NCBI RefSeq assembly: GCF_005405585.1
Contig: NZ_BJEQ01000022.1
Location: 1-64,000 of the forward strand
Source of the DNA: Agarivorans sp. Toyoura001
GTDB taxonomy: Bacteria > Pseudomonadota > Gammaproteobacteria > Enterobacterales > Celerinatantimonadaceae
Length of the DNA: 64,000 nucleotides
Reading direction: 5' to 3'
A model generated the notes under the pieces. It was not told the origin of the DNA, made no database searches, and saw only the letters and a program-made list of their open reading frames with translations. Below are positions 15,054-52,721 of the stretch, in pieces; position 1 is the stretch's first letter, and every line of letters begins with the position of its first letter. A program made the translations under genes and the position numbers.

Positions 15054-16053
15054 GTTTATTTGGCCTTATGTATTTGTTGCCCTGCCGCTGCTTTGGTTAG
15101 TAGAGCGTTTTAGTGGCTCCCAACAAGAACAACAAAACGAGCAACTGCTTAATACCAGCTTACCCTTTACCCAACAACAAGCCGTATTAGAGAAAACCAA
15201 CAGCCCGCTAAAACAAGGCTTGAAATGGCTAGTTTGGCTACTTTGTTTAGTGGCGTTTGCTCGCCCTGTTTGGCTCGACGACCAAGTGCAAGGCATTAAC
15301 GAGCAAGGGCGCGATTTACTGTTATCCGTCGATATGTCGGGCAGTATGCAAATTAAAGACATGCAACTTAATGACGAAGCGGTAGATCGTTTAACCGCCT
15401 TAAAAGTATTGCTCAAAGGGTTTATTGACCAACGCCGAGGTGATCGCGTAGGCATGATATTGTTTGCCGACCACGCCTACCTCTCTTCACCTTTAAGTTT
15501 TGACATGGACTCCTTGTTAATTCAGGTGGATGAATTAGTGCATGGTTTGGTGGGTGACAGAACAGCGATTGGTGAAGGCATTGGCCTTGGCATAAAACAA
15601 TTAATGAACCACCCTGCCGAGCAGCGCATACTCATTTTGCTTACCGACGGGCAAAACACCTCTGGCACAGTAGACCCAATGCAAGCGGCCGAGATGGCAG
15701 CAAAAAACCAAGTCGTGATTTACACCATTGGGGTCGGCGCTGATGAGCTGCTGCAACAAACTTTGTTTGGTACACGCAAAGTCAATCCTTCACATGATTT
15801 AGACGAGGAGTCACTGCAAAAAATCGCGGATATGACCGGCGGCCAGTATTATCGGGCGCGCAGCACCGATGAGCTAGCCCAGATTTATGAAGAAATTAAC
15901 GCACTCAACCCTATCTCTGAAGCAGAGCAATACTATCGCCCGCAATATGAACTGTATTATTGGCCACTGGCTCTAGCGGCTTTAGTGTTGTTAATTAGCC
16001 TGGCAGCTCCGCTCATTAGCCAGCGGTTCAGCGCTACAAAGGAGGTTCAATAA
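15046..16053 (+). CDS. batA: VWA-domain membrane protein (BatA type)
   Basis: A 335-residue protein with N-terminal membrane helices (residues about 5-20 and 60-76), a von Willebrand A domain starting with the metal-site motif DMSGS at about 96-100, and a C-terminal membrane helix (YYWPLALAALVLLISLAAPL). The loop LLTDGQNTSG supplies the later metal ligand. It overlaps the DUF4381 gene by 8 bases and ends on the start codon of the next gene. BatA-type proteins are linked to stress tolerance in other bacteria. Confidence 0.88.
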   Translation: MFEFIWPYVFVALPLLWLVERFSGSQQEQQNEQLLNTSLPFTQQQAVLEKTNSPLKQGLKWLVWLLCLVAFARPVWLDDQVQGINEQGRDLLLSVDMSGSMQIKDMQLNDEAVDRLTALKVLLKGFIDQRRGDRVGMILFADHAYLSSPLSFDMDSLLIQVDELVHGLVGDRTAIGEGIGLGIKQLMNHPAEQRILILLTDGQNTSGTVDPMQAAEMAAKNQVVIYTIGVGADELLQQTLFGTRKVNPSHDLDEESLQKIADMTGGQYYRARSTDELAQIYEEINALNPISEAEQYYRPQYELYYWPLALAALVLLISLAAPLISQRFSATKEVQ

Positions 16054-23730: not shown

Positions 23731-25305
23731 TTAGCTATTTACAGCGATTACAGATGTTTGTTGGCGATGGTACAAAGCCGCGCTAATAATCGCAAATAAT
23801 AGTAAGCCAATAGCTAACGCTGCGATCACACTTCCACTCATCCCCATCACCAAATAACTAGCGATGCTAATAAAGGCTACCAATAAAGCATAAGGTAGCT
23901 GCGTGGCTACGTGGTCAATATGATGACAAGCCGCACCAGTAGAAGACAAAATAGTCGTGTCGGAAATAGGCGAACAATGGTCACCAAATACCGCTCCCGC
24001 TAACACTGCCGACAACATAGGTAAAATTAAGCTCACTTCGCTGGCTACTGCCATATCTGCTGCAATAGGTAGCATGATACCAAAGGTACCCCAACTGGTG
24101 CCTGTGGCAAAGGCCATTACGCCAGCTAATACAAAAATAAGCACTGGTAACATTGCTGGGTTAATTGCACCGTCTAATTTAGCGGCCAAGTATTTACCCG
24201 TTTCCATATCACCAATAACACCACTAATAGACCAAGCAAATAGCAGAATAATAATTGCCGGGCTCATTGCTTTTAAACCTAACCAAATAGCATTTGATAA
24301 CTGTGTAAGGCTAAGTTGTTGCTTTAATGCGAAACCAATAGTAACCAACAAACCTACTATGCCACCCGTTACCAAAGACAAGGTGACATCAGTATTTTCC
24401 AATGCTGCCAACAAACCAAAAGCTTGGCCATCTTCAATAGCATTCGCACCAGTAACAACAAAGCTTGCGAAAGTAACCGCAGTGAGTAGCACAATTGGCA
24501 GCACCAAACCTAAAGGTGAGCCATTTTCCGCCTGGAAGTCATGATTAACACTGCCCGCTGGAATCCCCTTGGTTTTATCAAACAATTCGCCATCTGACGC
24601 TGCTTTTTCGTGTTGCGTCATTGGGCCAATGTTTAGATTAAAATAAGCGACCGTTAGTGCCATTAACAAAGCAAAAATGGCGTAGAAGTTAAGTGGAATC
24701 ATTGCGGCGAAGGCTGCTAATGGGCTGATGTCGGTAATTCCGTGTGTCACCAAAATACCGCCAATTAAGGCAATAATATAAGCACCCCAGCTAGATAAAG
24801 GCATAAGTACACACATGGGTGCGGCGGTCGAATCGAGCAGGTAAGCTAGTTTTGCTCGAGACACACCAGCTTGATCTGTCAGCGGGCGCGCTACACTGCC
24901 CACAGCAAGACTATGGAAATAATCATCTACAAACACCACAAAGCTTAAGAGTGCCGTAGTAACCGTTGCGTGGCGCTTAGTTTTAATGCGCTTTTGTGCC
25001 CAATGAGCAAAAGCAGATGTAGCCCCGGTTGCTGTCATTAAACTGGTCATACCGCCTAATAGCAGTAAGAAAAGAATGATTTGTAGATTCCATAGGTTTA
25101 GTCCGTCGTCCCACACCAGGCCGCTAGCCAGTTCGGTAAGATAAACCGCGCTAGCCCCAAAGGAAAAATTACTTAACAACAATGCACCGGTTAAAATACC
25201 GCAGCTTAACGCCACAACCACGCGGCGAGTAGCTAGTGCCACTAAAAGGGCTATAACTGGGGGTAAGATAGACAATATGGAATCTGTATATGAAATAGTT
25301 TGCAT
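23731..25305 (-). CDS. NhaC-family transporter, likely lysine transporter (LysW type)
   Basis: A 524-residue integral membrane protein with about 12 hydrophobic helices and the NhaC antiporter signatures (SSWGAYIIALIGGILVTHGI; FATGTSWGTFGIMLP; GDHCSPISDTTILSSTGA). By family alone it is a Na+/H+ antiporter. However, the leader carries a lysine riboswitch, and NhaC proteins under such control in Vibrio and Shewanella are taken to be lysine transporters. The direction of transport is not known. The gene stands alone, with its own sigma-70 promoter. Confidence 0.85.
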   Translation of the reverse strand: MQTISYTDSILSILPPVIALLVALATRRVVVALSCGILTGALLLSNFSFGASAVYLTELASGLVWDDGLNLWNLQIILFLLLLGGMTSLMTATGATSAFAHWAQKRIKTKRHATVTTALLSFVVFVDDYFHSLAVGSVARPLTDQAGVSRAKLAYLLDSTAAPMCVLMPLSSWGAYIIALIGGILVTHGITDISPLAAFAAMIPLNFYAIFALLMALTVAYFNLNIGPMTQHEKAASDGELFDKTKGIPAGSVNHDFQAENGSPLGLVLPIVLLTAVTFASFVVTGANAIEDGQAFGLLAALENTDVTLSLVTGGIVGLLVTIGFALKQQLSLTQLSNAIWLGLKAMSPAIIILLFAWSISGVIGDMETGKYLAAKLDGAINPAMLPVLIFVLAGVMAFATGTSWGTFGIMLPIAADMAVASEVSLILPMLSAVLAGAVFGDHCSPISDTTILSSTGAACHHIDHVATQLPYALLVAFISIASYLVMGMSGSVIAALAIGLLLFAIISAALYHRQQTSVIAVNS

Positions 25306-25367
25306 GTTTTCTCTGTTATTGTTGTTTAGAGAGCAAACTGAGTGATAGCCATACTTTGAACGTATGC

Positions 25368-25537
25368 ACCCTGTAGCTCTCCATAGTGTGTACTATGACA
25401 ATGCAGCATTTATTAAACACTGCACCAGTAACAAGTTTAGATGGTACTTGTTACTTCGGCGCGGGCCCCTTTCGTACAGAATCATTGGCATCACCCCATT
25501 CCACACTACTTTTGACCAGCGCTCCTCTACAATTTAG
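25368..25537 (-). promoter_or_regulatory. Lysine riboswitch (L box)
   Basis: Read on the minus strand from about 25535, the leader shows the conserved lysine aptamer blocks in order: TGTAGAGGAGCGC, AAAAGTAG, CGAAAGGGG then GCGCCGAAGTAAC, TTTAATAAATGCTGCATTGTC, and GGAGAGCTACAGGG. The P1 helix closes perfectly (TGTAG with CTACA). The expression platform to the ATG holds a hairpin CATAC/GTATG without a U-run, so control may be translational. It should sense lysine and control the NhaC-family gene 60 bases downstream. Confidence 0.92.
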
Positions 25538-34545: not shown

Positions 34546-35880
34546 TCAAGCTGGAAGCTGCACTCCTGAGTCTTTTATACGCGCTAGTTTGTAACGTAAA
34601 GTGCGTGGACTTATACCCAGTTTTTCGGCAACATCTTTACGTTTTCCGTGACAAGCCTTGAGTGTTTCTAAAATGATCTGCTGCTCTTGTTGGCGAAGTT
34701 CATTGCCAAGAGGTTCGGGAGTTAAACTTTGCTCTTCCAAAATAGGGGCAACACTTAGCGGCTCTAATTGATTTTCTATCACTAAACAGTCGCTATCGAT
34801 TGTAGACACGTTTGCCAAAATTAGCGCTCGTTGCATCACATTATCTAATTCACGCACATTACCCGGCCACGTATGGTTCATCAACTTATGCTGAGCACTT
34901 AAACTAAGTTCGTGAGTTTTGGGGCTGTGGCGGCTAAGTAAGTGATTAGCCAGTGGGAGGATATCGCCCTTACGTTGATTGAGTGGTTGCCACGCTAAAG
35001 GAAAAACGTTTAAGCGATAATACAGGTCTTCTCTAAACAAGCCTTGGCGAACAATTTCACGCATGTCTCGGTTGCTAGTAGCAATAACTCGAACATCCAA
35101 TTGAATCATTTTCCTGCTACCCAAACGCTCTACTTCTTTCTCTTGTAGCACCCGCAAAAGTTTAGCCTGTAAGCCCAAATCCATTTCGCTAATTTCATCA
35201 AGTAATATGGTACCGCCCTGCGCTTGTTCAAACTTACCCGGACACGCTTTAATAGCACCGGTAAAGGCTCCTTTTTCGTAACCAAATAACGTTGCCTCAA
35301 GCATATTCTCAGGTATTGCCGCACAGTTAATCGCAATGAATGCTTGCTCGCTTCGCGGGGAGCAATCATGGATATAGCGAGATAATACTTCTTTGCCGGC
35401 ACCACTAGGCCCACTTATTAGAACGGAAGCTTCTGAAGCTGCAACTTTTTGGCTCAATTTTAGCAGCGCCTCCGTAGAAGGGTCTCCATATATAGGCTCA
35501 CGCTTTTCTACTTTGATCGAAGGTGCATAGCGCCCTACTTGATTGAGCAGAACTTCAGGAGAAAATGGTTTAGACAGATAATCAATTGCACCATCTCGCA
35601 TCGCAGACACTGCATCGTCTATTTTTGCGTAGGCTGTCATTAATAATACGGGGGTTTGCGGCCATTTTTGCTTAATATTTTTAAGCAAACTTAAGCCATC
35701 CATTCCGCTCATTTGCACATCGCTAACCACTAAATCTACTTGCAGGTCGTTAAGGCTTAATAACGCAGCTTCAGCACTATCAGCTTGTTCGCATAAATAG
35801 CCAGCTAAAGACAAAGTGTCGACTAATGCCTCTCTTAATCCAGCATCGTCTTCTACAATTAAAATCGTTGATTGGCTCAT
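34546..35880 (-). CDS. flrC: Sigma-54-dependent flagellar response regulator FlrC
   Basis: A 444-residue NtrC-type regulator: receiver domain with phospho-acceptor D54 (VVSDVQMSG), AAA+ domain with Walker A GPSGAGKE and the sigma-54 contact loop GAFTGA, and a C-terminal Fis-type helix-turn-helix (RKDVAEKLGISPRTLRYKL). In Vibrio and Shewanella, FlrC activated by FlrB turns on class III sigma-54 genes (hook-basal body and a flagellin). Here the targets should include the sigma-54 promoters before flgB and flgF and probably the small RNA. It follows flrB after one base. Confidence 0.92.
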   Translation of the reverse strand: MSQSTILIVEDDAGLREALVDTLSLAGYLCEQADSAEAALLSLNDLQVDLVVSDVQMSGMDGLSLLKNIKQKWPQTPVLLMTAYAKIDDAVSAMRDGAIDYLSKPFSPEVLLNQVGRYAPSIKVEKREPIYGDPSTEALLKLSQKVAASEASVLISGPSGAGKEVLSRYIHDCSPRSEQAFIAINCAAIPENMLEATLFGYEKGAFTGAIKACPGKFEQAQGGTILLDEISEMDLGLQAKLLRVLQEKEVERLGSRKMIQLDVRVIATSNRDMREIVRQGLFREDLYYRLNVFPLAWQPLNQRKGDILPLANHLLSRHSPKTHELSLSAQHKLMNHTWPGNVRELDNVMQRALILANVSTIDSDCLVIENQLEPLSVAPILEEQSLTPEPLGNELRQQEQQIILETLKACHGKRKDVAEKLGISPRTLRYKLARIKDSGVQLPA

Positions 35881-35881
35881 C

Positions 35882-36925
35882 TTAATGCCCTCCTACAGCA
35901 AGGTCTTGGTGCTGCACTTCCGGCAACGGTAATGTCACGACAAAGCGGCTACCAAGTTCAGTGCCAGTGAGCTCAATGGAACCATGGTGAGCACTCACCA
36001 CTGATTTGACCACCGCTAGCCCTAAACCTGTTCCATTCTGTTTAGTGGTATAAAAAGGTTCGAATACTTTATGTTGTTGTGCTTTGTCTATTCCGCCAGC
36101 TTGATCTTCAACCTCAATAACAACTTCACTCTCAGAGGTAGTGACTGAAACGGATATAGGTTTGTCACTACCACTTAGTTGAGCAGCATTTTCAACTAAG
36201 TTCGACAGCGCTGATACTAAAGCGCTAGCATTTACCAACAGCTCGGTATTTGGATTTACAACCGACAAACGCAGCTCTACATTGTGTTGACGAACACAAG
36301 CATCTGTAGCGGCTTTAAGTTGCTCAATCAGTTGACCAATCGGCACATAGTTAACCACCATTTGTTCGCCACTTTTGGCGAACAACAACATATCGTTTAC
36401 TTGAATTTCTAAATCTTCAAGTCTTGCCATCATCTTGGTTCGAAAGCTGTCTCGCGCATTCTCTGACAAAGTTTTATTCGACAGGTTAGAGCCGTACAAC
36501 ATCGCCGCAGACAAAGGGGTTCTAATTTGATGCGCCAACGACGCCACCATGTTCCCTAGCGCAGACATACGCTGTAGTTTGGCAACATTTGCTTGAAGTT
36601 GACGAGTATGCGTCATATCGGTAAGAACGATTAGCTGGCCTTGGGTATCTTGTAAAGGCGATAAACTTAGTTTTACTCGCCTACCATCAACTAACGAAAG
36701 CTCATGGCCGTCATCAGCTTTAGGAGAGAATAAACGAGGCACCGCGTCTAACCAACGTTGCTGCTCAATGTCCTTACCCAGTAAATTTTTAGCAATAGGG
36801 TTGGCGCGCGCGACATAACCTTTATTGTCGAGTAGTACTAAACCTGAAGGCATAACATCAAATATCTGAGCAAGGTTATGCTCCGATAAGCTGGTAGGCT
36901 GTTGTTGTAAAAGCACTGAAGGCAT
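35882..36925 (-). CDS. flrB: Flagellar sensor histidine kinase FlrB
   Basis: A 347-residue soluble kinase: PAS domain (about 15-105), HisKA with phospho-histidine in SLAHQIRTPLSAAML (about 135), and ATPase domain with N box LVENAAQL and G boxes DQAGGID and GTGLGLAV. There is no membrane segment, as expected for FlrB, which phosphorylates FlrC. GGAG precedes the start. It is separated from flrA by a terminator, so flrBC has its own promoter or depends on read-through. Confidence 0.92.
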   Translation of the reverse strand: MPSVLLQQQPTSLSEHNLAQIFDVMPSGLVLLDNKGYVARANPIAKNLLGKDIEQQRWLDAVPRLFSPKADDGHELSLVDGRRVKLSLSPLQDTQGQLIVLTDMTHTRQLQANVAKLQRMSALGNMVASLAHQIRTPLSAAMLYGSNLSNKTLSENARDSFRTKMMARLEDLEIQVNDMLLFAKSGEQMVVNYVPIGQLIEQLKAATDACVRQHNVELRLSVVNPNTELLVNASALVSALSNLVENAAQLSGSDKPISVSVTTSESEVVIEVEDQAGGIDKAQQHKVFEPFYTTKQNGTGLGLAVVKSVVSAHHGSIELTGTELGSRFVVTLPLPEVQHQDLAVGGH

Positions 36926-37039: not shown

Positions 37040-38518
37040 TCAGCTATCTTTGTTCAACCCATACTTGCGCATTTTTTCTACTAGCGTCGTTCTGCGCATA
37101 CTCAGTTGCTCAGCAGCTCTAGCTACAATACCATCTTGTTGTTCGAGTGCTTGACGAATCAAATCAACTTCTAGCTCGGCCAGTAGCTCTTTTAAGTTAA
37201 CCCCTTCGTCGGGAAGTTGCTGAACACCACCCCAACCATCATCAAGAGATTCTTCTGGTTCGCCCTCTGGGAATAGGGCTTCTGGGCTTGGATCTGAAAA
37301 TACTGACGCATCTTCATCATTAAAAATCGCCAGTAAAGCATCACGTTCCGCTAATGCGGGACTATAGTTGGGTTCAAATGCTTCTGCATCTATGTGCCTA
37401 TATTTAGGCGGTAAATCATGTACATCAACAATTTGGTCGGGATGCAAGATAAGTAAACGCTCAACTAGGTTAGATAGTTCGCGAACATTACCTGGCCATT
37501 GGTGCTGCATTAGTGATTCAACAGCGCGCTGCGTAAAGCGAACCACAGCCGAATGCTCTTCCTCATGGCGATTAACTAACTCTTGCAGCAATAAAGGAAT
37601 GTCATCTTGGCGCTCTCGCAACGATGGCATCTCAATAGGGAATACATTTAATCTATAGTATAAATCTTCACGAAACTTCTCTTGCTCTATCATTCTCTCT
37701 AGCTGTCGGTGAGTAGCTGCCACAACTCGCACATTGGCGTTAATTGCTTTGCTCCCCCCAACACGCTCAAATTGGCGCTCTTGCAATACGCGAAGCAACT
37801 TAACTTGCATCGGCATTGGCATATCGCCAATTTCATCTAAGAACAACGTGCCGCCTTCAGCTAACTCAAAACGCCCTTTGCGCATAGCAAACGCGCCGGT
37901 AAAAGCGCCCTTTTCATGGCCAAACAATTCGCTTTCAAGTAAGTCTGGAGGAATAGCACCACAGTTAATTGGAACAAAAGGCCCGCCGTTTCTTGTGGAA
38001 TGGTCATGAATTGCTTTTGCAACGACCTCTTTACCTGTGCCAGATTCACCCAAAATCAGTACATTGGCTTCTTTAACAGCTACTTGCTCGATTAAATGAC
38101 GAACCTCTTGAATAGCAATGCCCTTGCCTATCAAGTTTTGTCTTAAACGTTCACTCTTTGCTGGAGCAATCTTGCCAGGAAGATGAGTAAGGTAGGCATC
38201 GCAGTGGTGTAATAACTGAGTTAGCTGCTCATAACTAAACGGTAAATCTAAATGGCCAATAAGATTAGGTAAAGGCTCAACGGTATGCCCCTCTCCTACA
38301 CTTAAAAAAGGACAAAGTGGATACTTAGCAATCAAACTACCAACATCGGTAATTTGCTTACTAATGAGTACTACGCGGCTAGTGTTTGACACTTCATTAG
38401 CAAAATTTTCGTTATCACAAACGCTAAACTGTTGCCCAATAAACCCCAGTACCGTTTCAAGTTGCTTAGCTCTCTCTGCGTCGTTTTCAAAAACTAAAAC
38501 ACTTTTGGATGCTTGCAT
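37040..38518 (-). CDS. flrA: Master flagellar regulator FlrA (sigma-54 activator)
   Basis: A 492-residue activator: N-terminal FleQ-type domain (1-120), AAA+ domain with Walker A GESGTGKE, GAFTGA loop and DEIGDMPM, and C-terminal Fis-type helix-turn-helix. It is the class I master regulator that turns on flrBC and other class II genes and in relatives responds to cyclic di-GMP. The ATG at 38518 has AGGGG upstream; one at 38554 lacks a ribosome site. Confidence 0.92.
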   Translation of the reverse strand: MQASKSVLVFENDAERAKQLETVLGFIGQQFSVCDNENFANEVSNTSRVVLISKQITDVGSLIAKYPLCPFLSVGEGHTVEPLPNLIGHLDLPFSYEQLTQLLHHCDAYLTHLPGKIAPAKSERLRQNLIGKGIAIQEVRHLIEQVAVKEANVLILGESGTGKEVVAKAIHDHSTRNGGPFVPINCGAIPPDLLESELFGHEKGAFTGAFAMRKGRFELAEGGTLFLDEIGDMPMPMQVKLLRVLQERQFERVGGSKAINANVRVVAATHRQLERMIEQEKFREDLYYRLNVFPIEMPSLRERQDDIPLLLQELVNRHEEEHSAVVRFTQRAVESLMQHQWPGNVRELSNLVERLLILHPDQIVDVHDLPPKYRHIDAEAFEPNYSPALAERDALLAIFNDEDASVFSDPSPEALFPEGEPEESLDDGWGGVQQLPDEGVNLKELLAELEVDLIRQALEQQDGIVARAAEQLSMRRTTLVEKMRKYGLNKDS

Positions 38519-40990
<2,472 letters not shown>

Positions 40991-41680: not shown

Positions 41681-43221
41681 AAGTCGCTTTTAGAGTTGAC
41701 TCCTCAACGGTCATAGGCAGCGGCCATGTTTACCGCTGCTTGTCATTAGCAATCCAACTTATCAAGCAAGATTATCAAGTCACTTTTATCTGTACAAACC
41801 ATGTGGGTAACGTAAATAGGATAATTCAAGAAGCGGGTTTCAAGCTATTGTGTTTAGGCGAACCAGCCGTAGAACTCGTTCCTGAAGACACAAGCACCTG
41901 GTTAGGAACCACTTATAGTGAGGATGCTGCAAACACTATAACAGCGCTAAACTCGCTTGGTGTGCTCGATTACCTAATTGTTGATCATTACGGAATTGAT
42001 AGTCGATGGGAGTCACTGTTAACACCTTATTCAGCTCAAATAGTTGTTATCGACGACCTTGCTAATCGCGCGCACAAGTGCGATATCCTATTAGACCAAA
42101 CCTACGGCAGGCTTCCTTCAGACTATTCTTCCTACGTAACACCAGGAACAAAGCTACTGCTGGGAACAGAATATGCTTTGTTAAGGGAAGAGTTTCTTAT
42201 TGCTATTCCTACTGCGCGTCACAAAAGACTGTTGAACAAGTCAATAAAACACGTCCTCATTAGTTTAGGAGGAACAGATCGAACTAATGTAAGCAAAACA
42301 CTTATAGACCTACTGAACCAAAGTCCTTTAGAAAATACGACCCAGCTAACTATAATTGCAGGCCCAAACAACCCACATTACCCAGCGCTAATTGACGCCA
42401 GCGTGCAATCCCGTTTTGTCAATTGCAGGGTTTTACGTTCAATATCCAATATGGCTGAAGTATTAACTGAATCAGATTTAGCTATTGGTGCTAGTGGAGC
42501 GAGCGCTTGGGAACGATGCTCATTAGGTTTACCAAGTATCAACATTGAATTAGCCAGCAATCAAAAAGACATTTGCCGCATTTTATCGAAAAAAGGTGCC
42601 GCATTATCTTTGGGGACACCAGATAAACTAAATGCTCTAGCCCTAACGACCGCAATAAAAAATATACAGATGAACTACCAAACGATGGTTGAAAATGCGG
42701 TGTCTATTGTTGATGGCAAGGGGACTTTAAGAGCATCTACAGCACTAATAAATAAACCGTTAAACGATGGAAACATAGCTTATTTGAAGTTGGCCGGTCG
42801 GAATGATTGTCACCAGTTTTATTTGTGGCAATTAGAACCAGCTACACGCGCTAATTCCTTAAACCCAGCAGTTCCTACCTGGACAGAGCATCAACAATGG
42901 TTTAGCAAGCAAATCAGTAATCAGAATAACAAGCTCTATCTGGTTGTTAGTAATGGCGAGCCATTAGGTATGCTTAGGCTTGATCTTATAGCCCCTTTAA
43001 GTTACGAGATATCCATAGTGACTGCGCAAGAAAAAGTGAGAACAGGAGTGGCGAGCGCTGCACTTAAATTAGCGAGAGCGTTGTTACCTAAAGCAAAGCT
43101 TTATGCCACTATATTGGCAAAGAATCATGCCTCAATTGGCTTATTTATAAATCAAGGTTTTGAGCGTATAGAACAAAATCGTTACTTACAAAAAGCTCAT
43201 GGAATGCCCAATGACAAATAG
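41677..43221 (+). CDS. pseG: PseG-PseH fusion: UDP-sugar hydrolase with C-terminal GNAT acetyltransferase
   Basis: A 514-residue protein. Residues 1 to about 350 match PseG, which removes UDP from the diacetamido-altrose intermediate (MKVAFRVDSSTVIGSGHVYRC at the start, given in part: VDSSTVIGSGHVYR; GASGASAWERCSLGLPSI is the UDP-binding end). Residues about 365-510 form a GNAT domain (ITPW-type start replaced by VPTWTEHQQWF; VRTGVASAALKLARALL as acetyl-CoA loop). A separate pseH is absent from the operon, so the tail very probably does the PseH N-acetylation. The usual PseG is about 350 residues. Confidence 0.88.
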   Translation: MKVAFRVDSSTVIGSGHVYRCLSLAIQLIKQDYQVTFICTNHVGNVNRIIQEAGFKLLCLGEPAVELVPEDTSTWLGTTYSEDAANTITALNSLGVLDYLIVDHYGIDSRWESLLTPYSAQIVVIDDLANRAHKCDILLDQTYGRLPSDYSSYVTPGTKLLLGTEYALLREEFLIAIPTARHKRLLNKSIKHVLISLGGTDRTNVSKTLIDLLNQSPLENTTQLTIIAGPNNPHYPALIDASVQSRFVNCRVLRSISNMAEVLTESDLAIGASGASAWERCSLGLPSINIELASNQKDICRILSKKGAALSLGTPDKLNALALTTAIKNIQMNYQTMVENAVSIVDGKGTLRASTALINKPLNDGNIAYLKLAGRNDCHQFYLWQLEPATRANSLNPAVPTWTEHQQWFSKQISNQNNKLYLVVSNGEPLGMLRLDLIAPLSYEISIVTAQEKVRTGVASAALKLARALLPKAKLYATILAKNHASIGLFINQGFERIEQNRYLQKAHGMPNDK

Positions 43222-44266
43222 TATCAGCCTTGGTGGTCGACTCATCGGCCCCAGTCAAGCGCCGTATATCATCGCTGAAGTTTCAGCAAATCATAATGGT
43301 AGTATTGATAATGCTTTAGCGTTGATTAAAGCAGCTAAACTTTCAGGCGCTGATGCAGTAAAAATACAAACTTATCGAGCAGATACAATTACTTTAAATA
43401 GTGACAAAGAAGACTTTCAGATTAACGGCGGCTTATGGAATGGAAAAACTCTCTACGAGCTTTATGAGTCAGCGTATACGCCTTGGGAATGGCATCAGCA
43501 ATTATTCGAGTACGCAAAATCCATTGATATTACACTTTTTAGTTCCCCTTTCGATAACAGCGCAGTAGATTTACTAGAGAGTTTAGACACTCCCGCTTAT
43601 AAAATAGCATCATTCGAAGCGATTGACTTACCCCTTATTAAGTATGTAGCGTCAACCGGTAAACCAATGATCATATCTACCGGTATGGCAGATAAAAATG
43701 AAATAGAAGAGGCCATACTCACAGCAAAATCTGCCGGTTGTCATCAATTAGCTGTTTTGCATTGCGTTAGTGGTTACCCTGCTCCTGCATCAGATTACAA
43801 TCTAAAAACAATGGTAGACATGCAGAGTGAGTTCAATGTCATCACCGGGCTATCAGACCATACCATCGACAATACTACTGCTTTAACAGCTGTCGCTCTG
43901 GGAGCATCTATAGTAGAAAAACATGTCACTTTAAACCGCTTGGGCGGTGGCCCGGATGACAGTTTTTCTATAGAACCTAACGAACTATCAGCGCTTTGTA
44001 AATCAGCAAAAACAGCTTGGTCTGCGCTAGGAAGAGTTTCCTATTCTCGAGCGTCAAGTGAGCAGCAGAATACACAATTTCGTCGTTCGCTTTACATAAG
44101 TAAACCAGTTAAAAAAGGTGAAACATTTACCGTTGAAAACATTCGTAGTGTTAGACCAGGTTTCGGTTTAGCGCCAAAACACCTTGATGACGTTCTTGGT
44201 AAAACCGCATTAATAGATTTAGATTTCGCTACGCCCCTATCTTGGGAAGTGGTTAGCAAAATTTAA
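43211..44266 (+). CDS. pseI: Pseudaminic acid synthase PseI
   Basis: A 351-residue NeuB-family synthase that condenses the altrose intermediate with phosphoenolpyruvate to give pseudaminic acid. IIAEVSANHNGSIDNAL (about residues 20-36) and the C-terminal SAF/antifreeze-like domain (RRSLYISKPVKKGETFT) are typical. The ATG at 43211 overlaps the pseG stop; an in-frame ATG at 43199 is possible. It is the last gene of the pse operon. Confidence 0.93.
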   Translation: MTNSISLGGRLIGPSQAPYIIAEVSANHNGSIDNALALIKAAKLSGADAVKIQTYRADTITLNSDKEDFQINGGLWNGKTLYELYESAYTPWEWHQQLFEYAKSIDITLFSSPFDNSAVDLLESLDTPAYKIASFEAIDLPLIKYVASTGKPMIISTGMADKNEIEEAILTAKSAGCHQLAVLHCVSGYPAPASDYNLKTMVDMQSEFNVITGLSDHTIDNTTALTAVALGASIVEKHVTLNRLGGGPDDSFSIEPNELSALCKSAKTAWSALGRVSYSRASSEQQNTQFRRSLYISKPVKKGETFTVENIRSVRPGFGLAPKHLDDVLGKTALIDLDFATPLSWEVVSKI

Positions 44267-44779: not shown

Positions 44780-47713
44780 TTACCCTACTTTTGATGCTTG
44801 CTTTCTTTCATTAAGAATGTCTAATGCAGGCATAGAATTAAAGTCATTATCAGGTACTGGCCTCGGCGTTTGGTCGAATTCGCCAAAGTTGTTTAGGGCC
44901 TTGTCTCTCATTTCAGTGATATATTCAACCCAAATAGCTTTACCTTCATTGAAGCGCTGCATACACAAGTCTTCATCTTCCGAGGAATAGGCTAACCGAG
45001 TGAGATAAGTCAAACAAAAAGATGCACTCCCTCTCATCAAGTAGAAGAATAAAGAATGAGGATCTGCGGCAGAGGTTTTTACTAGGTAAACCTGTCTATC
45101 TAAAATACTGAGTACATCTTCCCAGCTGTTTGCTTCTTCATTAATAATTTCAAGTAACTCATTACAATGGCGTTCTAAGTGCTCAGCAAGATAGGTATTA
45201 TCAAATTTCTCAACAATCTGAGCAGTTTGGTTATTATACGCCTCTGATTTGATTCTTTGTTTAAAAGCTGTTTTATCAAGATCTTCGCCTAACAGAAGAA
45301 CTTGCTCAATGGGTAGTGGAGTGGCTCCCTCAATTAACGCGCCATTGGAGGTATTATAAACTTCAGCATCGCTAAACTCATTAATAGCCTTTCCAAGTAT
45401 TTCTGCCGAATACCTAAACTCATGCTTAGTAAATACATAGTCTTCAAAGTTTCCAGGCACTCTTAAACCCGTGCCATGAGTAGCATAATCATAAAGCTCT
45501 TTGCCATCTTCTGTAGCATTGTAATAGGCAGAGTGTTTACTATGGTGCTGTTTAGGGTCAACAAAGCCTAAATCAACCCCAAATAAATACACTTGTCTAA
45601 ATCCGAGTTGCAATACATATGAAAGCGCACAATTTGAAACCGTAGGGTAGGAGTAAAGTATGCTATCCAACTCTTCAAACTCTTCTGATGCCTCCAAGAA
45701 ACTCAATGAACCAGCTTCACCCGTTTTCAAACAATACAAAGTATCACCAAACATGTCGGATACTTCAGGGTGCAAACCATTAACACTAATCATGTCAATT
45801 TGTTTTAACCAATCGGGATCAGGAACTTGGCATACCCAGTGAAGCGTCGCCCTAGTCTGCTCTACTTCAGCATGAAAATCAGGTTTAATTCCTAGTTGAT
45901 AAAGGGCCTTCAAGCTAGTTCCTACAGAAATAACAATCGCTTTCCCTTGATGCTGCTTAATAACCTCAGCACTACTATCTAAAGAAGGGCCATTACCTAC
46001 GATAAAGACAGGTACCTTAGCGAGCTGCTTACTTAAGTCCTCTGGTTTGTACTTAAGCATGTAGTGCTTGTTTTTTAGTAACGAATCACGAGTATGATTC
46101 AGGTTATAAAAAGCGTGGTCAAAAAACTCGCTTATGTTTAGAAGAACTTTAAATTGATCTCTGGTTAAATGTATATTTTTGTTCATTTCATGTTGAAAAT
46201 AACTCACATAAAAGAACGTATATGAAAGAATATGAATTCCGTAGCTTTGCAAACGTGAGTGAATATCATCGAACATATGAGTACCATCATCACCAATATT
46301 CAAGTAAAGCTTAGTCCCTTGCTTATCAGCAGTCTGCAGAATATCACTCCAGTTAATAGTAGATAAAGACGCATAGAAGAAATCAATATTTGGTTCATAT
46401 AAGATAAAGTTATCAACAACATGATTGTTGAATAACATCTCTACTTGGTAGCCTAGTGAACATCCATACATGATGAAAGAAGGCAACTTGTAGGGTAACT
46501 TGCTTTGCTTAGACTCAGGAATAGCTTGTACTAAGCTTTTCAACTGAGCTGATTTTTCATAATGAATAAACGGGCTAGGTTTATGAAAGGTTTTTCTAGC
46601 ATCTAGCGGATCTATTTTGGGGTTAGCGGAATAATGCTCAAAATACTCGACGCTTGCATCATGTATTTCCTGATTACTAAACATAACGCCTTGCTCTAAA
46701 TCAAATAGGTTGAGTTGCCCTTCTCCAATACTGACTAACTGCCACCGGTTAACCTTGTATTCAATTGCAAACGCGTGAATTTCTGGGAAAAATTGCTTGA
46801 AAGCCTCAACATTACTGGAAAACTGCTCTTCCAAGTTTCGAATGTTTTTTGCTTCTATACGTGAGGCAAGTTTAGGATCTTGAATAAAATAGTAACTTAG
46901 GGAGTGGCTTAGTTCGTAGCTACTCTCACTTTCAAATTTCTCAGCTTGTTCGATTAATTCATTTGAAAACGGGTCCAAACCTAATGCTAAATGGTATTCG
47001 AAACAGTTAAACACAGAGTAATCATAATGACGAAAGATTTGAAAAGAACTTAAATCATGCTCATTCTTCCAATCTTGTATCGCATGTATTGACTCAGCCC
47101 CCTTAACTCCAGCAACAATATTAAGCTTAATTCCGTTAGCTGATACATGCCCCAACATTTCACGCCACTCAGCACTAAGTAACGATACATGTAAAAGATC
47201 CATTTCAGGCTCAACAATGAGAATACGTTTCCACTGACCGGCTGTAGCGAGCTGCTTTAAATGAAGTCCTAAACCACAGCCTAAAATAACAAGGTTTTCA
47301 GAAGTCTCATCTAGAGCTTGATAGCGCTGATTACCACTAGGAATAAGTGAATTAAGTGAAGCGCCTTGTTTTGGAATAACACTTAATGGATCACCTTGAA
47401 TACCTACATTGTAAGTGAGTGCTTGTTGAACAAAATGTGCGACCTGTATAGATACATGTCGCTCCGGTATTAGGTCGTAAAGCGACCGACCTTTACCAAT
47501 ACTCATTACGCTGACACGCTTGGATTTGGTAACAAAAGGTGAGAAAGTCACTGAATGATGAGATGAGAGTGCTTTGGCCAATTCTAAGTCAAAGCTGGCA
47601 AAGGCTTCTAAATTTCGAGCTAATCGCCGCTGAATTAGTGGTGAAAGTTGAGACTCGTTTTGCTTTTGAATAGTCTCGTCCGATGAAGTTTGAAAATCAA
47701 TATTCTTTAGCAT
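44780..47713 (-). CDS. Motility-associated factor (Maf) flagellin glycosyltransferase, long form
   Basis: A 977-residue protein of the Maf/DUF115 family, which transfers nonulosonic acids such as pseudaminic acid to flagellin. The core MAF_flag10 domain begins at about residue 575 (VFIVGNGPSLDSSAEVIK; GTSLKALYQLGIKPDFHAEV). Before it the N-terminal region contains two related copies: LVILGCGLGLHLKQL with RILIVEPEMDLL near 143, and FIMYGCSLGYQVEML with FILYEPNIDFF near 420. Ordinary Maf proteins have 600-700 residues. It lies with fliS and fliD, opposite the pse operon. Confidence 0.88.
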   Translation of the reverse strand: MLKNIDFQTSSDETIQKQNESQLSPLIQRRLARNLEAFASFDLELAKALSSHHSVTFSPFVTKSKRVSVMSIGKGRSLYDLIPERHVSIQVAHFVQQALTYNVGIQGDPLSVIPKQGASLNSLIPSGNQRYQALDETSENLVILGCGLGLHLKQLATAGQWKRILIVEPEMDLLHVSLLSAEWREMLGHVSANGIKLNIVAGVKGAESIHAIQDWKNEHDLSSFQIFRHYDYSVFNCFEYHLALGLDPFSNELIEQAEKFESESSYELSHSLSYYFIQDPKLASRIEAKNIRNLEEQFSSNVEAFKQFFPEIHAFAIEYKVNRWQLVSIGEGQLNLFDLEQGVMFSNQEIHDASVEYFEHYSANPKIDPLDARKTFHKPSPFIHYEKSAQLKSLVQAIPESKQSKLPYKLPSFIMYGCSLGYQVEMLFNNHVVDNFILYEPNIDFFYASLSTINWSDILQTADKQGTKLYLNIGDDGTHMFDDIHSRLQSYGIHILSYTFFYVSYFQHEMNKNIHLTRDQFKVLLNISEFFDHAFYNLNHTRDSLLKNKHYMLKYKPEDLSKQLAKVPVFIVGNGPSLDSSAEVIKQHQGKAIVISVGTSLKALYQLGIKPDFHAEVEQTRATLHWVCQVPDPDWLKQIDMISVNGLHPEVSDMFGDTLYCLKTGEAGSLSFLEASEEFEELDSILYSYPTVSNCALSYVLQLGFRQVYLFGVDLGFVDPKQHHSKHSAYYNATEDGKELYDYATHGTGLRVPGNFEDYVFTKHEFRYSAEILGKAINEFSDAEVYNTSNGALIEGATPLPIEQVLLLGEDLDKTAFKQRIKSEAYNNQTAQIVEKFDNTYLAEHLERHCNELLEIINEEANSWEDVLSILDRQVYLVKTSAADPHSLFFYLMRGSASFCLTYLTRLAYSSEDEDLCMQRFNEGKAIWVEYITEMRDKALNNFGEFDQTPRPVPDNDFNSMPALDILNERKQASKVG

Positions 47714-50425: not shown

Positions 50426-51241
50426 TTAAACTAGAGCTAACGCAGCCTGTGGGCGTTGGTTTGCTTGAGCAAGAATTGAAGTACTAGTTTGCTGTAGAAT
50501 TTGCGCTTTAGTTAAGTCAGCAGTTTCTTTGGCAAAATCAGTATCTTTAATTCGTGAACGCGCACCAGAGATGTTCTCTGAAATGTTAGACAAGTTACGA
50601 ATCGTAGATTGGAAACGGTTTTGAACCGCACCTAAAGAAGCTCGTTCTGAGTCAACTTGTTTAATAGCTGAGTCAATCAAAGCCATTGCACCACTCGCAC
50701 CGCCAGCAGATAATACGCTCACACCAGTAATACCTAGGCCTGCTTGGCTAATTGTTTGACCAATCTTAAGCAAGATGTTCTCACCAGCGTTCGCTCCTAC
50801 TAAAAAGTTAGAGCTATATGCGCCATCAAGTAGCGCGGTGCCACCAAACTTAGTAGTTGTACCTACTCGAGAAATCTCCGCTTTAAGTTGAGATACTTCC
50901 GCTTGAAGAGCAATACGGTCATCAGTGTTGTTCACACCATCTTGAGACTGAACCGCTAAAACACGCATACGTTGAAGCATGTTGGTTACTTCATCCATTG
51001 CACCTTCAGCAGTTTGGGCCACCGAGATACCATCTTGAGCGTTCATTACAGCACGATCAAGACCCTGGATTTGAGAAGTCATACGGTTAGAGATTTGTAG
51101 ACCAGCCGCATCATCTTTTGCACTGTTAATTCTGAAACCAGAACTTAAGCGTTGATAGGCAGTATCTAAAGAGTTACCAGAATTATATAACTGGCGCTGT
51201 GCGTTCAATGACGACGTATTTGTGTTGACAACTAATGCCAT
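50426..51241 (-). CDS. fliC: Flagellin (copy 1, downstream)
   Basis: A 271-residue flagellin. The conserved N-terminal D0/D1 domain (about 1-140, [38 protein letters not shown]) and C-terminal D1/D0 (about 185-271, [16 protein letters not shown]) flank a very short variable centre, typical of the short marine polar flagellins. It differs from copy 2 mainly in the centre. The ribosome site TAGGAGG is exceptionally strong and is complementary to the small RNA described here. A sigma-28 promoter lies about 145 bases upstream. Confidence 0.96.
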
Positions 51242-51244
51242 AAT

Positions 51245-51256
51245 TTGAGCCTCCTA
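51245..51256 (-). promoter_or_regulatory. Ribosome site of flagellin 1, predicted small-RNA target
   Basis: The minus-strand bases TAGGAGGCTCAA contain a full Shine-Dalgarno 8 bases before the ATG. All 12 are perfectly complementary to bases 51717-51728 of the plus-strand small RNA. The other flagellin's ribosome site matches that segment over only 6 bases. Confidence 0.65.
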
Positions 51257-51387
51257 AGAAATCGCTCATCCTGATTGAACTGTGTCAGGACGACCTAAAC
51301 CATTCGTTAGTTGTTGAACCCCTGATTTATGAACCGTAAACCAAGACAACTTAAAAATGGACCAAAGTTTTATTAACTTCATATTAG

Positions 51388-51414
51388 TTAGCGGCAAGCT
51401 AGGAAAAAGCTTTA
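51388..51414 (-). promoter_or_regulatory. Sigma-28 (FliA) promoter of flagellin 1
   Basis: On the minus strand TAAA (51414-51411), 15 bases, GCCGCTAA (51395-51388) fits the FliA consensus TAAA-N15-GCCGATAA with one difference. The predicted 5' UTR is about 140 bases. Confidence 0.85.
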
Positions 51415-51433
51415 GAGAAAAAGAGGGAAAAAC

Positions 51434-51460
51434 GGAAAAAAATTGCCGCTTTTACGGCAA
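51434..51460 (-). terminator. Intrinsic terminator, minus strand, between the flagellin genes
   Basis: A stem TTGCCG/CGGCAA with a 6-base loop is followed by seven T on the minus strand. It is the first good minus-strand terminator after flagellin 2, some 340 bases beyond that stop, so the flagellin 2 message would have a long 3' UTR. Confidence 0.8.
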
Positions 51461-51572
51461 GCCTTGCTATCAAAGGCTTCGTAGCTGAAAATATTGTAAG
51501 ATAAAGCTGGCTAAAGGTAGAGGTTTTATCTACTTATTTTATTTTTTGATGCCAATTATCTGTCACTAAAAC

Positions 51573-51590
51573 TTGGCACAAGCATTGCTT
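51573..51590 (+). promoter_or_regulatory. Sigma-54 promoter, plus strand, between the flagellin genes
   Basis: TTGGCACAAGCATTGCTT is an almost perfect sigma-54 promoter (TGGCAC, 5 bases, TTGCT), with GG at 51575-51576 and GC at 51587-51588 spaced by exactly 10 bases. No protein gene follows on this strand before the terminator at 51758-51795, so it most likely drives a small RNA that starts near 51600. Confidence 0.85.
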
Positions 51591-51599
51591 TATTACAAG

Positions 51600-51793
51600 T
51601 GCAGTCTGAACCGCTGCGAAAAAAGGCCAAGTGAGTATACATCACTTGACCGTATCGCTCGAAACGATAGGAGATTGAGAGCGAAACTAAAAGCGCAACT
51701 TATTATTGGTATGGAATTGAGCCTCCTAGGAGTACTAATTGCGCTATTACAGTCTGAGGACGGTGGATTGAACCCCCACCGTCCTTTTCTTTT
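51600..51793 (+). ncRNA. Candidate sigma-54-dependent small RNA, putative flagellin regulator
   Basis: About 190 bases between a sigma-54 promoter and an intrinsic terminator, without a credible protein frame. Visible stems: GCAG/CTGC (51601-51617); CAAGTGA/TCACTTG (51628-51648, extended by GG/CC); TATCG/CGATA (51653-51669); AGCGCAA/TTGCGCT (51692-51698 with 51739-51745), which encloses a 40-base loop; and the terminator stem. The loop holds TTGAGCCTCCTA, perfectly complementary to the ribosome site of flagellin 1. The U-rich end (TTTTCTTTTTT) would suit Hfq. It lies antisense to the predicted 3' UTR of flagellin 2. I do not recognise it as a known RNA family. Confidence 0.7.
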
Positions 51794-51795
51794 TT
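51758..51795 (+). terminator. Intrinsic terminator of the candidate small RNA
   Basis: The 9-base-pair stem GGACGGTGG/CCACCGTCC with a 9-base loop is followed by TTTTCTTTTTT on the plus strand. There is no T-run on the minus strand side, so it is oriented for the plus-strand RNA. It ends 1 base before the flagellin 2 stop codon. Confidence 0.9.
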
Positions 51796-51796
51796 C

Positions 51797-52615
51797 TTAT
51801 CCAAGTAGAGACAGTGCAGCCTGAGGACGTTGGTTCGCTTGAGCCAAAATCGTCGTCGAGGTTTGCTGAATAATTTGGTTTCTGGTTAACTCAGCAGTTT
51901 CTTTTGCAAAATCAGTATCTTTAATTCGAGAACGTGCAGCCGTTACATTTTCAGAAATGTTAGACAAGTTACGAATGGTAGATTGGAATCGGTTTTGAAC
52001 CGCACCCAATTGCGCTCGTTCACCGTCAATTTTCTTCACCGCTGAATCAATCGCGGCCATTGCGGCACTAGCTGCAGCTGGAGTTGACACAGTCAAGCCG
52101 TTAATACCTAAACCTGCTTGAGTAACTGTAGTGGCAATAGTCACAGCAATATTTTCGCCGGCATTTGCACCCACTAAGAAGTTTTCATTATAGTTACCAT
52201 CTAATAAGGTGATGTTACCAAACTTAGTGGTTGTACCTACTCGGCTAATCTCTGCCTTAAGCTGGGAAACCTCTGCTTGCAAGGCAAGTCTGTCGTCAGA
52301 GTTGTTAATACCATCTTGAGATTGGATGGCTAAAGTACGCATACGTTGAAGCATATTTGTTACTTCGTCCATCGCGCCTTCAGCGGTTTGCGCTAACGAG
52401 ATACCATCTTGAGCATTCATTACTGCGCGGTCTAGACCTTGAATTTGCGAAGTCATACGGTTTGAAATTTGAAGACCAGCGGCATCGTCCTTTGCACTAT
52501 TAATACGCAAACCCGATGACAAGCGTTGGAATGATGTATCTAAAGACCAGCCAGATTGAGTTAACTGACGTTGGGCATTTAGTGATGACACATTTGTATT
52601 TACGTATAAAGCCAT
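51797..52615 (-). CDS. fliC: Flagellin (copy 2, upstream)
   Basis: A 272-residue flagellin closely similar to copy 1 (near-identical through [20 protein letters not shown], for example), differing in the short centre (residues about 140-190) and at scattered sites such as a tryptophan in SGWSLDTSF. Several Ser/Thr in the centre could carry pseudaminic acid. Its ribosome site, TAGGAGAAATATC before the ATG, differs from that of copy 1. A sigma-28 promoter lies about 80 bases upstream. Its transcript probably continues through the small-RNA region before terminating. Confidence 0.96.
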   Translation of the reverse strand: MALYVNTNVSSLNAQRQLTQSGWSLDTSFQRLSSGLRINSAKDDAAGLQISNRMTSQIQGLDRAVMNAQDGISLAQTAEGAMDEVTNMLQRMRTLAIQSQDGINNSDDRLALQAEVSQLKAEISRVGTTTKFGNITLLDGNYNENFLVGANAGENIAVTIATTVTQAGLGINGLTVSTPAAASAAMAAIDSAVKKIDGERAQLGAVQNRFQSTIRNLSNISENVTAARSRIKDTDFAKETAELTRNQIIQQTSTTILAQANQRPQAALSLLG

Positions 52616-52694: not shown

Positions 52695-52721
52695 ATAACG
52701 GCGGCGCTTCAATATTCTTTA
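52695..52721 (-). promoter_or_regulatory. Sigma-28 (FliA) promoter of flagellin 2
   Basis: On the minus strand TAAA (52721-52718), 15 bases, GCCGTTAT (52702-52695) fits the FliA consensus with differences only at the end of the -10 box. Confidence 0.8.

Follow-up and report, generated by a model that had tools for sequence, protein, structure and literature searches.

A candidate sigma-54-dependent base-pairing RNA gene between the flagellin genes of Agarivorans sp. Toyoura001

In the OxyS-fhlA kissing complex, the small RNA (sRNA) pairs with its target by loops, and one of the contact sites lies at the target SD. The Qrr sRNAs of Vibrio are encoded by stand-alone, sigma-54-dependent genes with a U-tailed terminator and act in quorum sensing. 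Among flagellar systems, Campylobacter jejuni has the sRNAs FlmE (CJnc230) and FlmR (CJnc170); FlmE is RpoN-dependent, operates in the flagellar cascade, carries a putative anti-SD motif and represses mRNAs, its reported direct targets being flgM and a flagella-interaction regulator (PMC11187230). The E. coli sRNAs UhpU, MotR, FliX and FlgO are embedded in flagellar regulation and are UTR-derived and sigma-28-dependent (PMC10578931; named in PMC11187230). In Shewanella, which has tandem flagellins, flaB is reported to be sigma-28-dependent and flaA FliA-independent (PMC6299084, PMC3120886), and the hypothesis has been put forward that, as flaB sets in, flaA is restricted at the transcriptional and post-transcriptional levels in an unknown way (PMC6299084). 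A TSS study of Alteromonas macleodii reports 127 chromosomal sRNAs (PMC5864184). Our search of the open PMC literature returned no recognisable sRNA encoded between flagellin genes and pairing with a flagellin leader. For the ordering and proportioning of several flagellins, an sRNA gene between them that matches the RBS of one and is antisense to the 3'UTR of the other would offer a concrete mechanism.

Promoter, terminator and conservation of the candidate sRNA gene

The window (the whole 64,000-nucleotide stretch analysed) encodes two flagellins with Flagellin_N/C domains on the minus strand: a flaA-like protein (51797-52615), so named as the upstream gene, and a flaB-like protein (50426-51241). 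A preliminary description placed a candidate sigma-54-driven flagellar sRNA on the plus strand between them, at 51573-51795. The -24/-12 promoter, described there as near-perfect, is in fact an exact consensus (TGGCACAAGCATTGCT, 51574-51589, plus strand). No other exact match to TGGCACN5TTGCT occurs in the window, and shuffled versions of the window contained a mean of 0.05 (4 of 100 had at least one). The predicted sRNA extends over 51601-51793, as judged from its fold, its conservation and the alignment of its copies, with a 5' end deduced at about 51600 and a 3' end in a U-tract. The strong same-strand terminator that had been proposed is likewise present (51758-51796, plus strand): a stem at 51758-51784 with the loop UUGAACCCC (51768-51776) is followed by TTTTCTTTTTT, as read from the sequence, which gives the sRNA a U-rich 3' tail. 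A simple terminator scan of the window did not have this element among its matches, probably because the loop has nine bases and the scan allows eight. The locus combines the two hallmarks expected of a sigma-54-dependent sRNA gene, a -24/-12 promoter at the proper distance and a Rho-independent terminator.

The segment of about 190 bases had also been said to contain no credible coding frame. Its longest ATG frame has 26 codons in the window copy, where it stays open to 51824, past the sRNA terminator, and at most 33 codons in any copy of the family; no ATG frame is common to the 12 copies. Nor does the RNA belong to a recognised family, as the preliminary description had suspected. A search of the whole window with Rfam 15 returned only a Lysine riboswitch elsewhere, with no family at the sRNA locus, and a search of 51240-51800 gave two matches far below the gathering threshold (E 0.43 and 9). 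The riboswitch (25366-25537, minus strand, 125 bits) lies upstream of a 524-aa ORF (23731-25305).

Conservation among relatives that keep the flagellin pair had been set beforehand as a test on which the reading should stand or fall. We analysed 12 genomes of the window's own family (that of the window, six more of the genus and five of the family). The sRNA segment is kept in all 12, from the promoter (as TGGCA[CT]-N5-[TCA]TGC) through the region of the stems to the terminator. A core-motif scan of genomes yielded five matches, four of which, in Aliagarivorans (two), Alginatibacterium and Celerinatantimonas, have sRNA stretches identical to family copies already counted. The fifth, in a Cyanothece MAG (L047), lacks both the sRNA context and a flagellin start. 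A covariance model built from the 12 copies and run against 394 genomes of the order recovered all of these, each at E 1e-39 or better, along with four weak matches. Three of the weak matches fall in a single other family (f7), between flagellin genes and on the antisense strand; the fourth, L043 (G245), lies in an unrelated coding region and was taken as chance.

The window also encodes candidates for the activator that a sigma-54 promoter needs, as had been noted. Pfam domains identify a FlrA/FleQ-like sigma-54 activator (37040-38554; PF06490, the FleQ domain, and PF00158, sigma-54 AAA+), an FlrC-like response regulator and sigma-54 activator (34546-35880; PF00072, PF00158 and PF02954) and an FlrB-like histidine kinase (35882-36925; PF02518 and PF00512), all on the minus strand; among the NCBIfam models shown for these three proteins, none reached its cut-off. 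Taken with the conservation of promoter, body and terminator, the evidence points to a sigma-54-driven flagellar sRNA gene outside Rfam, presumably transcribed under the control of FlrC or FlrA. A Maf-type flagellin glycosyltransferase (44780-47713, minus strand; PF20157 and PF01973) is encoded downstream of the flagellin genes, and the ORF at 43199-44266 looks NeuB-like by eye.

Complementarity to the flaB leader

The preliminary description named no target; comparison among the genomes supplies one. The anti-SD seed of the sRNA, UUGAGCCUCCUA (51717-51728, plus strand), is the exact complement of the flaB SD region (51256-51245, minus strand). The flaB leader (51242-51380, minus strand, with a predicted 5' end) follows a sigma-28-like promoter, TAAAGCTT-N11-GCCGCTAA (51388-51414, minus strand), and all 12 family genomes have TAAAG-N14-GCCG at -168 to -173 from the flaB ATG. 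The seed region of the family reads UUGAGCCUCCUA(A/G)GA and is complementary to the flaB SD region. The longest Watson-Crick run between sRNA and flaB leader is 12-16 nt in the 12 genomes. It measures 12 nt in the window, or 16 nt when G.U is counted, and 14-16 nt in the remaining eleven genomes. Shuffled sRNAs matched the observed run in only 2, 0 and 0 of 300 trials in L002, L008 and L013, respectively, and the same test on flaA leaders gave background values (67, 187 and 154 of 300). In the 4.65-Mb genome, the exact 12-mer target occurs only in the flaB leader and in the sRNA itself, with 12 one-mismatch copies elsewhere, and flaB ranks first among the 60 SD-preceded start candidates of the window. 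Global duplex energies between sRNA and flaB leader were no better than those of shuffles; this method favours long, loose duplexes, so that only the contiguous-run statistic supports the pairing. Because the seed is nearly invariant in the family, compensatory evidence within it is slight: one pair is changed on both sides in L008, and L013 has one extra pair.

Additional contacts are suggested by the loops of the sRNA. The motif UGAACC is present in the apical loop of hairpin 1 (51607-51612) and in the terminator loop, where its predicted unpaired probabilities are 0.90-1.0 and 0.99-1.0, respectively. The flaB leader contains GGUUCA twice in all 12 genomes (51335-51330 and 51320-51315 in the window, minus strand). 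A third site (AGUUCA at 51281-51276 in the window, minus strand) reads A/GGUUCA in 11 of the 12 genomes and UGUUCA in L011. This third site, which is AGUUCA in several genomes, is less open in L005, L006 and L013 (0.31-0.51 unpaired). The main invariant blocks of the leader are the SD target, two of the three GGUUCA-type sites and UUGUCU. Short as these motifs are, in the predicted folds the UGAACC loops and GGUUCA sites suit kissing contacts.

The flaB SD is partly paired in the predicted leader folds (mean unpaired 0.21-0.67), which leaves an outside chance that the sRNA is an activator, releasing the flaB SD from a leader structure that conceals it. However, the seed lies over the SD and would block ribosomes too, and the target in family f7 likewise overlaps an SD. 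We therefore favour repression of flaB as the outcome of the predicted pairing. Further targets are possible: at 16053 (plus strand), 11 nt in the RBS region of a VWA/TPR (BatB-like) gene are complementary to sRNA hairpin 1 (CTGAACCGCTG), a match that may be due to chance.

Related loci in two other families

We checked 20 tandem-flagellin loci from other genomes for antisense sigma-54 sites between the flagellins and found clear ones in four, three in family f7 (L054, L056 and L057) and one in family f25 (L067). Thirteen of the other 16 loci had none. The sites in L050, L058 and L061 were weak, outside the flagellin gap or unplaced (the L061 site scored 5.0), and the script recognised no flagellin start in L050 and L061.

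RNA matches in f7 occur in 69 of 246 genomes and 21 of 52 genera, with up to four per genome; three matches, the weakest of all, have E values of 3.5e-4 to 9e-4 and could have arisen by chance. Two to four matches lie close together in G412, G443, G469 and G291 and are probably tandem copies. The f7 seed, CUUCUACACUCUCAGUCC, is present in 29 of 30 loci, 28 of them with a sigma-54 site upstream, and complements a flagellin SD; in the three clusters read from end to end, this SD belongs to the first flagellin. The corresponding 14-mer target element occurs in 52 of the 246 genomes, all of them among the 69 that bear the RNA (14.6 expected). It sits directly before a flagellin start in 28 of the 30 places examined, the exceptions being L107 and L117, where it is not in a flagellin leader. 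Twenty of the 28 genomes with the element in a flagellin leader also have a seed locus. In 19 of these 20, seed and SD pair contiguously over 17-19 nt when G.U is counted; G458 has 13 nt and an A x C mismatch. Watson-Crick pairs number 15 in 11 of the 20 and only 9-10 in six. One pair is changed on both sides in each of G403 and G592, and G126, which has a seed deletion and stands outside the 20, pairs over 10 nt. A conserved seed complementary to the RBS beyond chance, as expected of an sRNA acting at the SD, is thus found both in the window's family and in f7. The f7 clusters also contain a second antisense sigma-54 unit with CACUACCUCCUGG (L054 at about 3380, L056 at about 4874 and L057 at about 4624, mRNA-strand coordinates). 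To the eye, part of it is complementary to the last flagellin's SD (8-10 nt), with longest runs not above those of shuffles.

In f25, RNA matches were found in 27 of 75 genomes, and 26 of 30 loci, from 25 genomes, have an antisense sigma-54 site. In each of the 26, 11-15 nt are complementary to a flagellin leader that had not been selected for such a match; L134 and L135 have an A/T-rich run with the other leader that is longer than the seed match. The f25 target sits upstream in the leader rather than at the SD. Compared across 23 loci, the pairs flanking the core change type together: one side is U-A in 16, C-G in six and G/A in one, and the other is C-G in 16, A-U in one, U-A in one and U/U in five.

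The mean seed/leader run is 12.3-14.7 nt within families and 6.6-7.8 nt, or background, between them (up to eight leaders per family), where the within-family means are biased upward because the leaders were picked by target motifs (in f7 for the pairing and swap tests and in f25 for the swap test). Genomes within a family are not independent. The shuffle-tested run lengths and the count of 26 of 26 in f25 are free of this bias. Among 192 swapped pairs of f25 seeds and f1 leaders (those of the window's family), four reached at least 11 nt. The two other families follow the same plan; their seeds differ from that of the window's family, each complementing a flagellin leader of its own, and some compensatory changes are seen.

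A probable antisense flaA transcript and a putative order of flagellins

The sRNA segment is strongly structured. Its fold (51602-51793) has an energy of -59.8 kcal/mol, compared with -43.6 +- 4.2 among 200 shuffled sequences, none of which was as low (z -3.9). We counted pairs in hairpins 1, 2 and 3 and in the terminator, leaving out hairpin 4 (GCGCAA/UUGCGC; 51693-51744, plus strand), which contains the anti-SD in predicted folds and which, from the alignment read by eye, alternates in relatives with GCGCUA/UAGCGC. Across the 12 copies, 96% of the cells in the four helices are paired and five pairs are changed on both sides (at least as many were seen in 15 of 500 shuffles), with a covariation score of 0.134 versus 0.078 in shuffles (0 of 500 as high); the number of further pair types was not outstanding (140 of 500). 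Four of the double-sided changes fall in helix 2 and one in helix 1, whereas helix 3 is invariant and 9 of the 11 terminator pairs never vary. In hairpin 1 (51601-51617, plus strand), an A-U pair becomes G-C in two of the 12 rows, and the inner pair is U.G, U-A or C-G, which suits the plus strand, with C x A in two rows. This hairpin appears in the lowest-energy fold of eight of the 12 copies and is missing from four.

These results uphold only in part the four internal stems of the preliminary description and the covariation it had proposed to look for among relatives: the fold is strong, and double-sided changes are present, but stem 2 is better read on the other strand. In hairpin 2 (51625-51651), eight of 12 rows have C x A on the plus strand where the minus strand has G.U, and a U-run follows on the minus strand. 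This hairpin is most likely the intrinsic terminator of the flaA mRNA, although it folds in the sRNA too, and its covariation can therefore not be counted for the sRNA, whose own structural covariation is reduced to one pair. The same pattern makes it probable that the flaA mRNA covers the greater part of the sRNA gene in antisense. The flaA gene has a sigma-28-like promoter by eye (TAAAGAAT-N11-GCCGTTAT, 52695-52721, minus strand), and visual inspection of 11 flaA leaders recognised TAAAG-N14-GCCG in at least 10.

Hairpin 3 (51655-51684, plus strand) also relates to flaA. The loop on its invariant stem, GAUAGGAGA (51666-51674), is identical to the flaA SD over 9-10 nt in all 12 family genomes, so that an element of the flaA 3'UTR, on the minus strand, is complementary to the SD of flaA itself. 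In the 27 f7 loci with both SDs, the hairpin-3 loop shares a mean of 8.7 nt with the SD of the upstream flagellin versus 5.3 nt with that of the downstream one. When own and swapped combinations of loop and upstream SD were compared, none of 5000 permutations was as high across families, the signal was weak within f7 (59 of 5000), and the comparison within the window's family gave no support (4707 of 5000). With the signal absent there, we treat the shared identity of hairpin 3 and the flaA SD as a lead.

With its terminator holding four of the five covarying pairs and an anti-SD element in hairpin 3, the segment could be merely the structured 3'UTR and terminator of flaA, its plus-strand promoter and terminator being incidental. 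This is quite improbable, as an incidental sigma-54 promoter would hardly be conserved in all 12 genomes of the window's family, in 28 of 29 seed loci of f7 and in 26 of 30 loci of f25. Furthermore, hairpin 1 lies beyond the flaA terminator, with an inner pair that mostly suits the plus strand, and the plus strand has a U-tailed terminator of its own. A slimmer chance still is that the RNA is a CsrA/RsmA sponge, whose hairpin-3 loop (AUAGGAGA) mimics the flaA RBS and titrates CsrA off flagellin mRNAs. The loop is invariant, bears GGA and shares its 9-10 nt with the flaA SD, and CsrA control of flagella is described for Pseudoalteromonas (PMC11882849). Yet each sRNA copy has 3-5 GGA and 0-1 ANGGA, compared with 9-25 GGA given there for the Pseudoalteromonas Csr sRNAs (PMC11882849), and a sponge leaves the 12-16 nt complement to flaB and the seeds of f7 and f25 unexplained. 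A conserved small protein has a negligible prospect and was rejected, for although an 83-codon TTG frame is open across the segment and the six closest copies share a 26-codon ATG frame, no ATG frame is kept throughout the 12, lengths and frames shift, two copies have none in the frame concerned, and indels are not multiples of three.

We consider it likely, then, that 51573-51795 is the gene of a regulatory RNA that belongs to the flagellin cluster, depends on sigma-54 and acts by base pairing; its seed would block the flaB RBS with the help of loop contacts. The anatomy of the gene, its conservation, its complementarity and the co-change of seed and target in the other families are computed observations; from them we infer transcription, control by FlrC or FlrA, repression and an ordering of the flagellins. 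Sigma-54 with FlrC (or FlrA) would make the sRNA during hook-basal-body assembly. The anti-SD seed would then cover the RBS of the downstream, sigma-28-promoted flaB, and the two UGAACC loops would contact the GGUUCA sites of its leader and aid the seed pairing. For as long as the sigma-54 flagellar genes are active, translation of flaB would in this way be blocked. The sRNA and the flaA 3'UTR come from opposite strands of the same DNA, so the sRNA is able to pair with the flaA mRNA, and the overlap suggests that the two could pair over some 170 nt and titrate or remove each other. FlaB would thus be made to wait for FlaA. Both flagellin genes have apparent sigma-28-like promoters, so the RNA could supply an order that the promoters do not. 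Our best reading of the sequences is that the sRNA represses flaB and may unmask flaA.

A more speculative extension, which we put at rather less than an even chance, is a two-handed order switch. The sRNA would cover the flaB SD and, as an antisense to the flaA 3'UTR, hide the anti-SD element there and free flaA; rising flaB (or flaA) mRNA would titrate the sRNA and flip the order. The same logic would apply, with family-specific seeds and tandem copies, in the multi-flagellin clusters of the three families. With or without this extension, these swimming marine bacteria may use an RNA to choose which flagellin is made when, and an architecture found in three families with different seeds would represent a widespread RNA layer in polar flagellar hierarchies.

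The OxyS-fhlA complex resembles the present candidate in its loop pairing, the SD included, and differs in regulon and promoter. The Qrr sRNAs share the predicted sigma-54 dependence, a stand-alone gene and a U-tailed terminator, but they serve quorum sensing, and the present locus has no Rfam match. In Shewanella, flaA is reported to be FliA-independent, whereas the flaA-like gene here has a sigma-28-like promoter too. The E. coli sRNAs UhpU, MotR, FliX and FlgO are UTR-derived and sigma-28-dependent, unlike the present sRNA gene with its own sigma-54 promoter. FlmE is the nearest in logic, being an RpoN-dependent flagellar sRNA with a putative anti-SD; its reported direct targets include flgM, whereas the predicted target of the present sRNA is a flagellin RBS.
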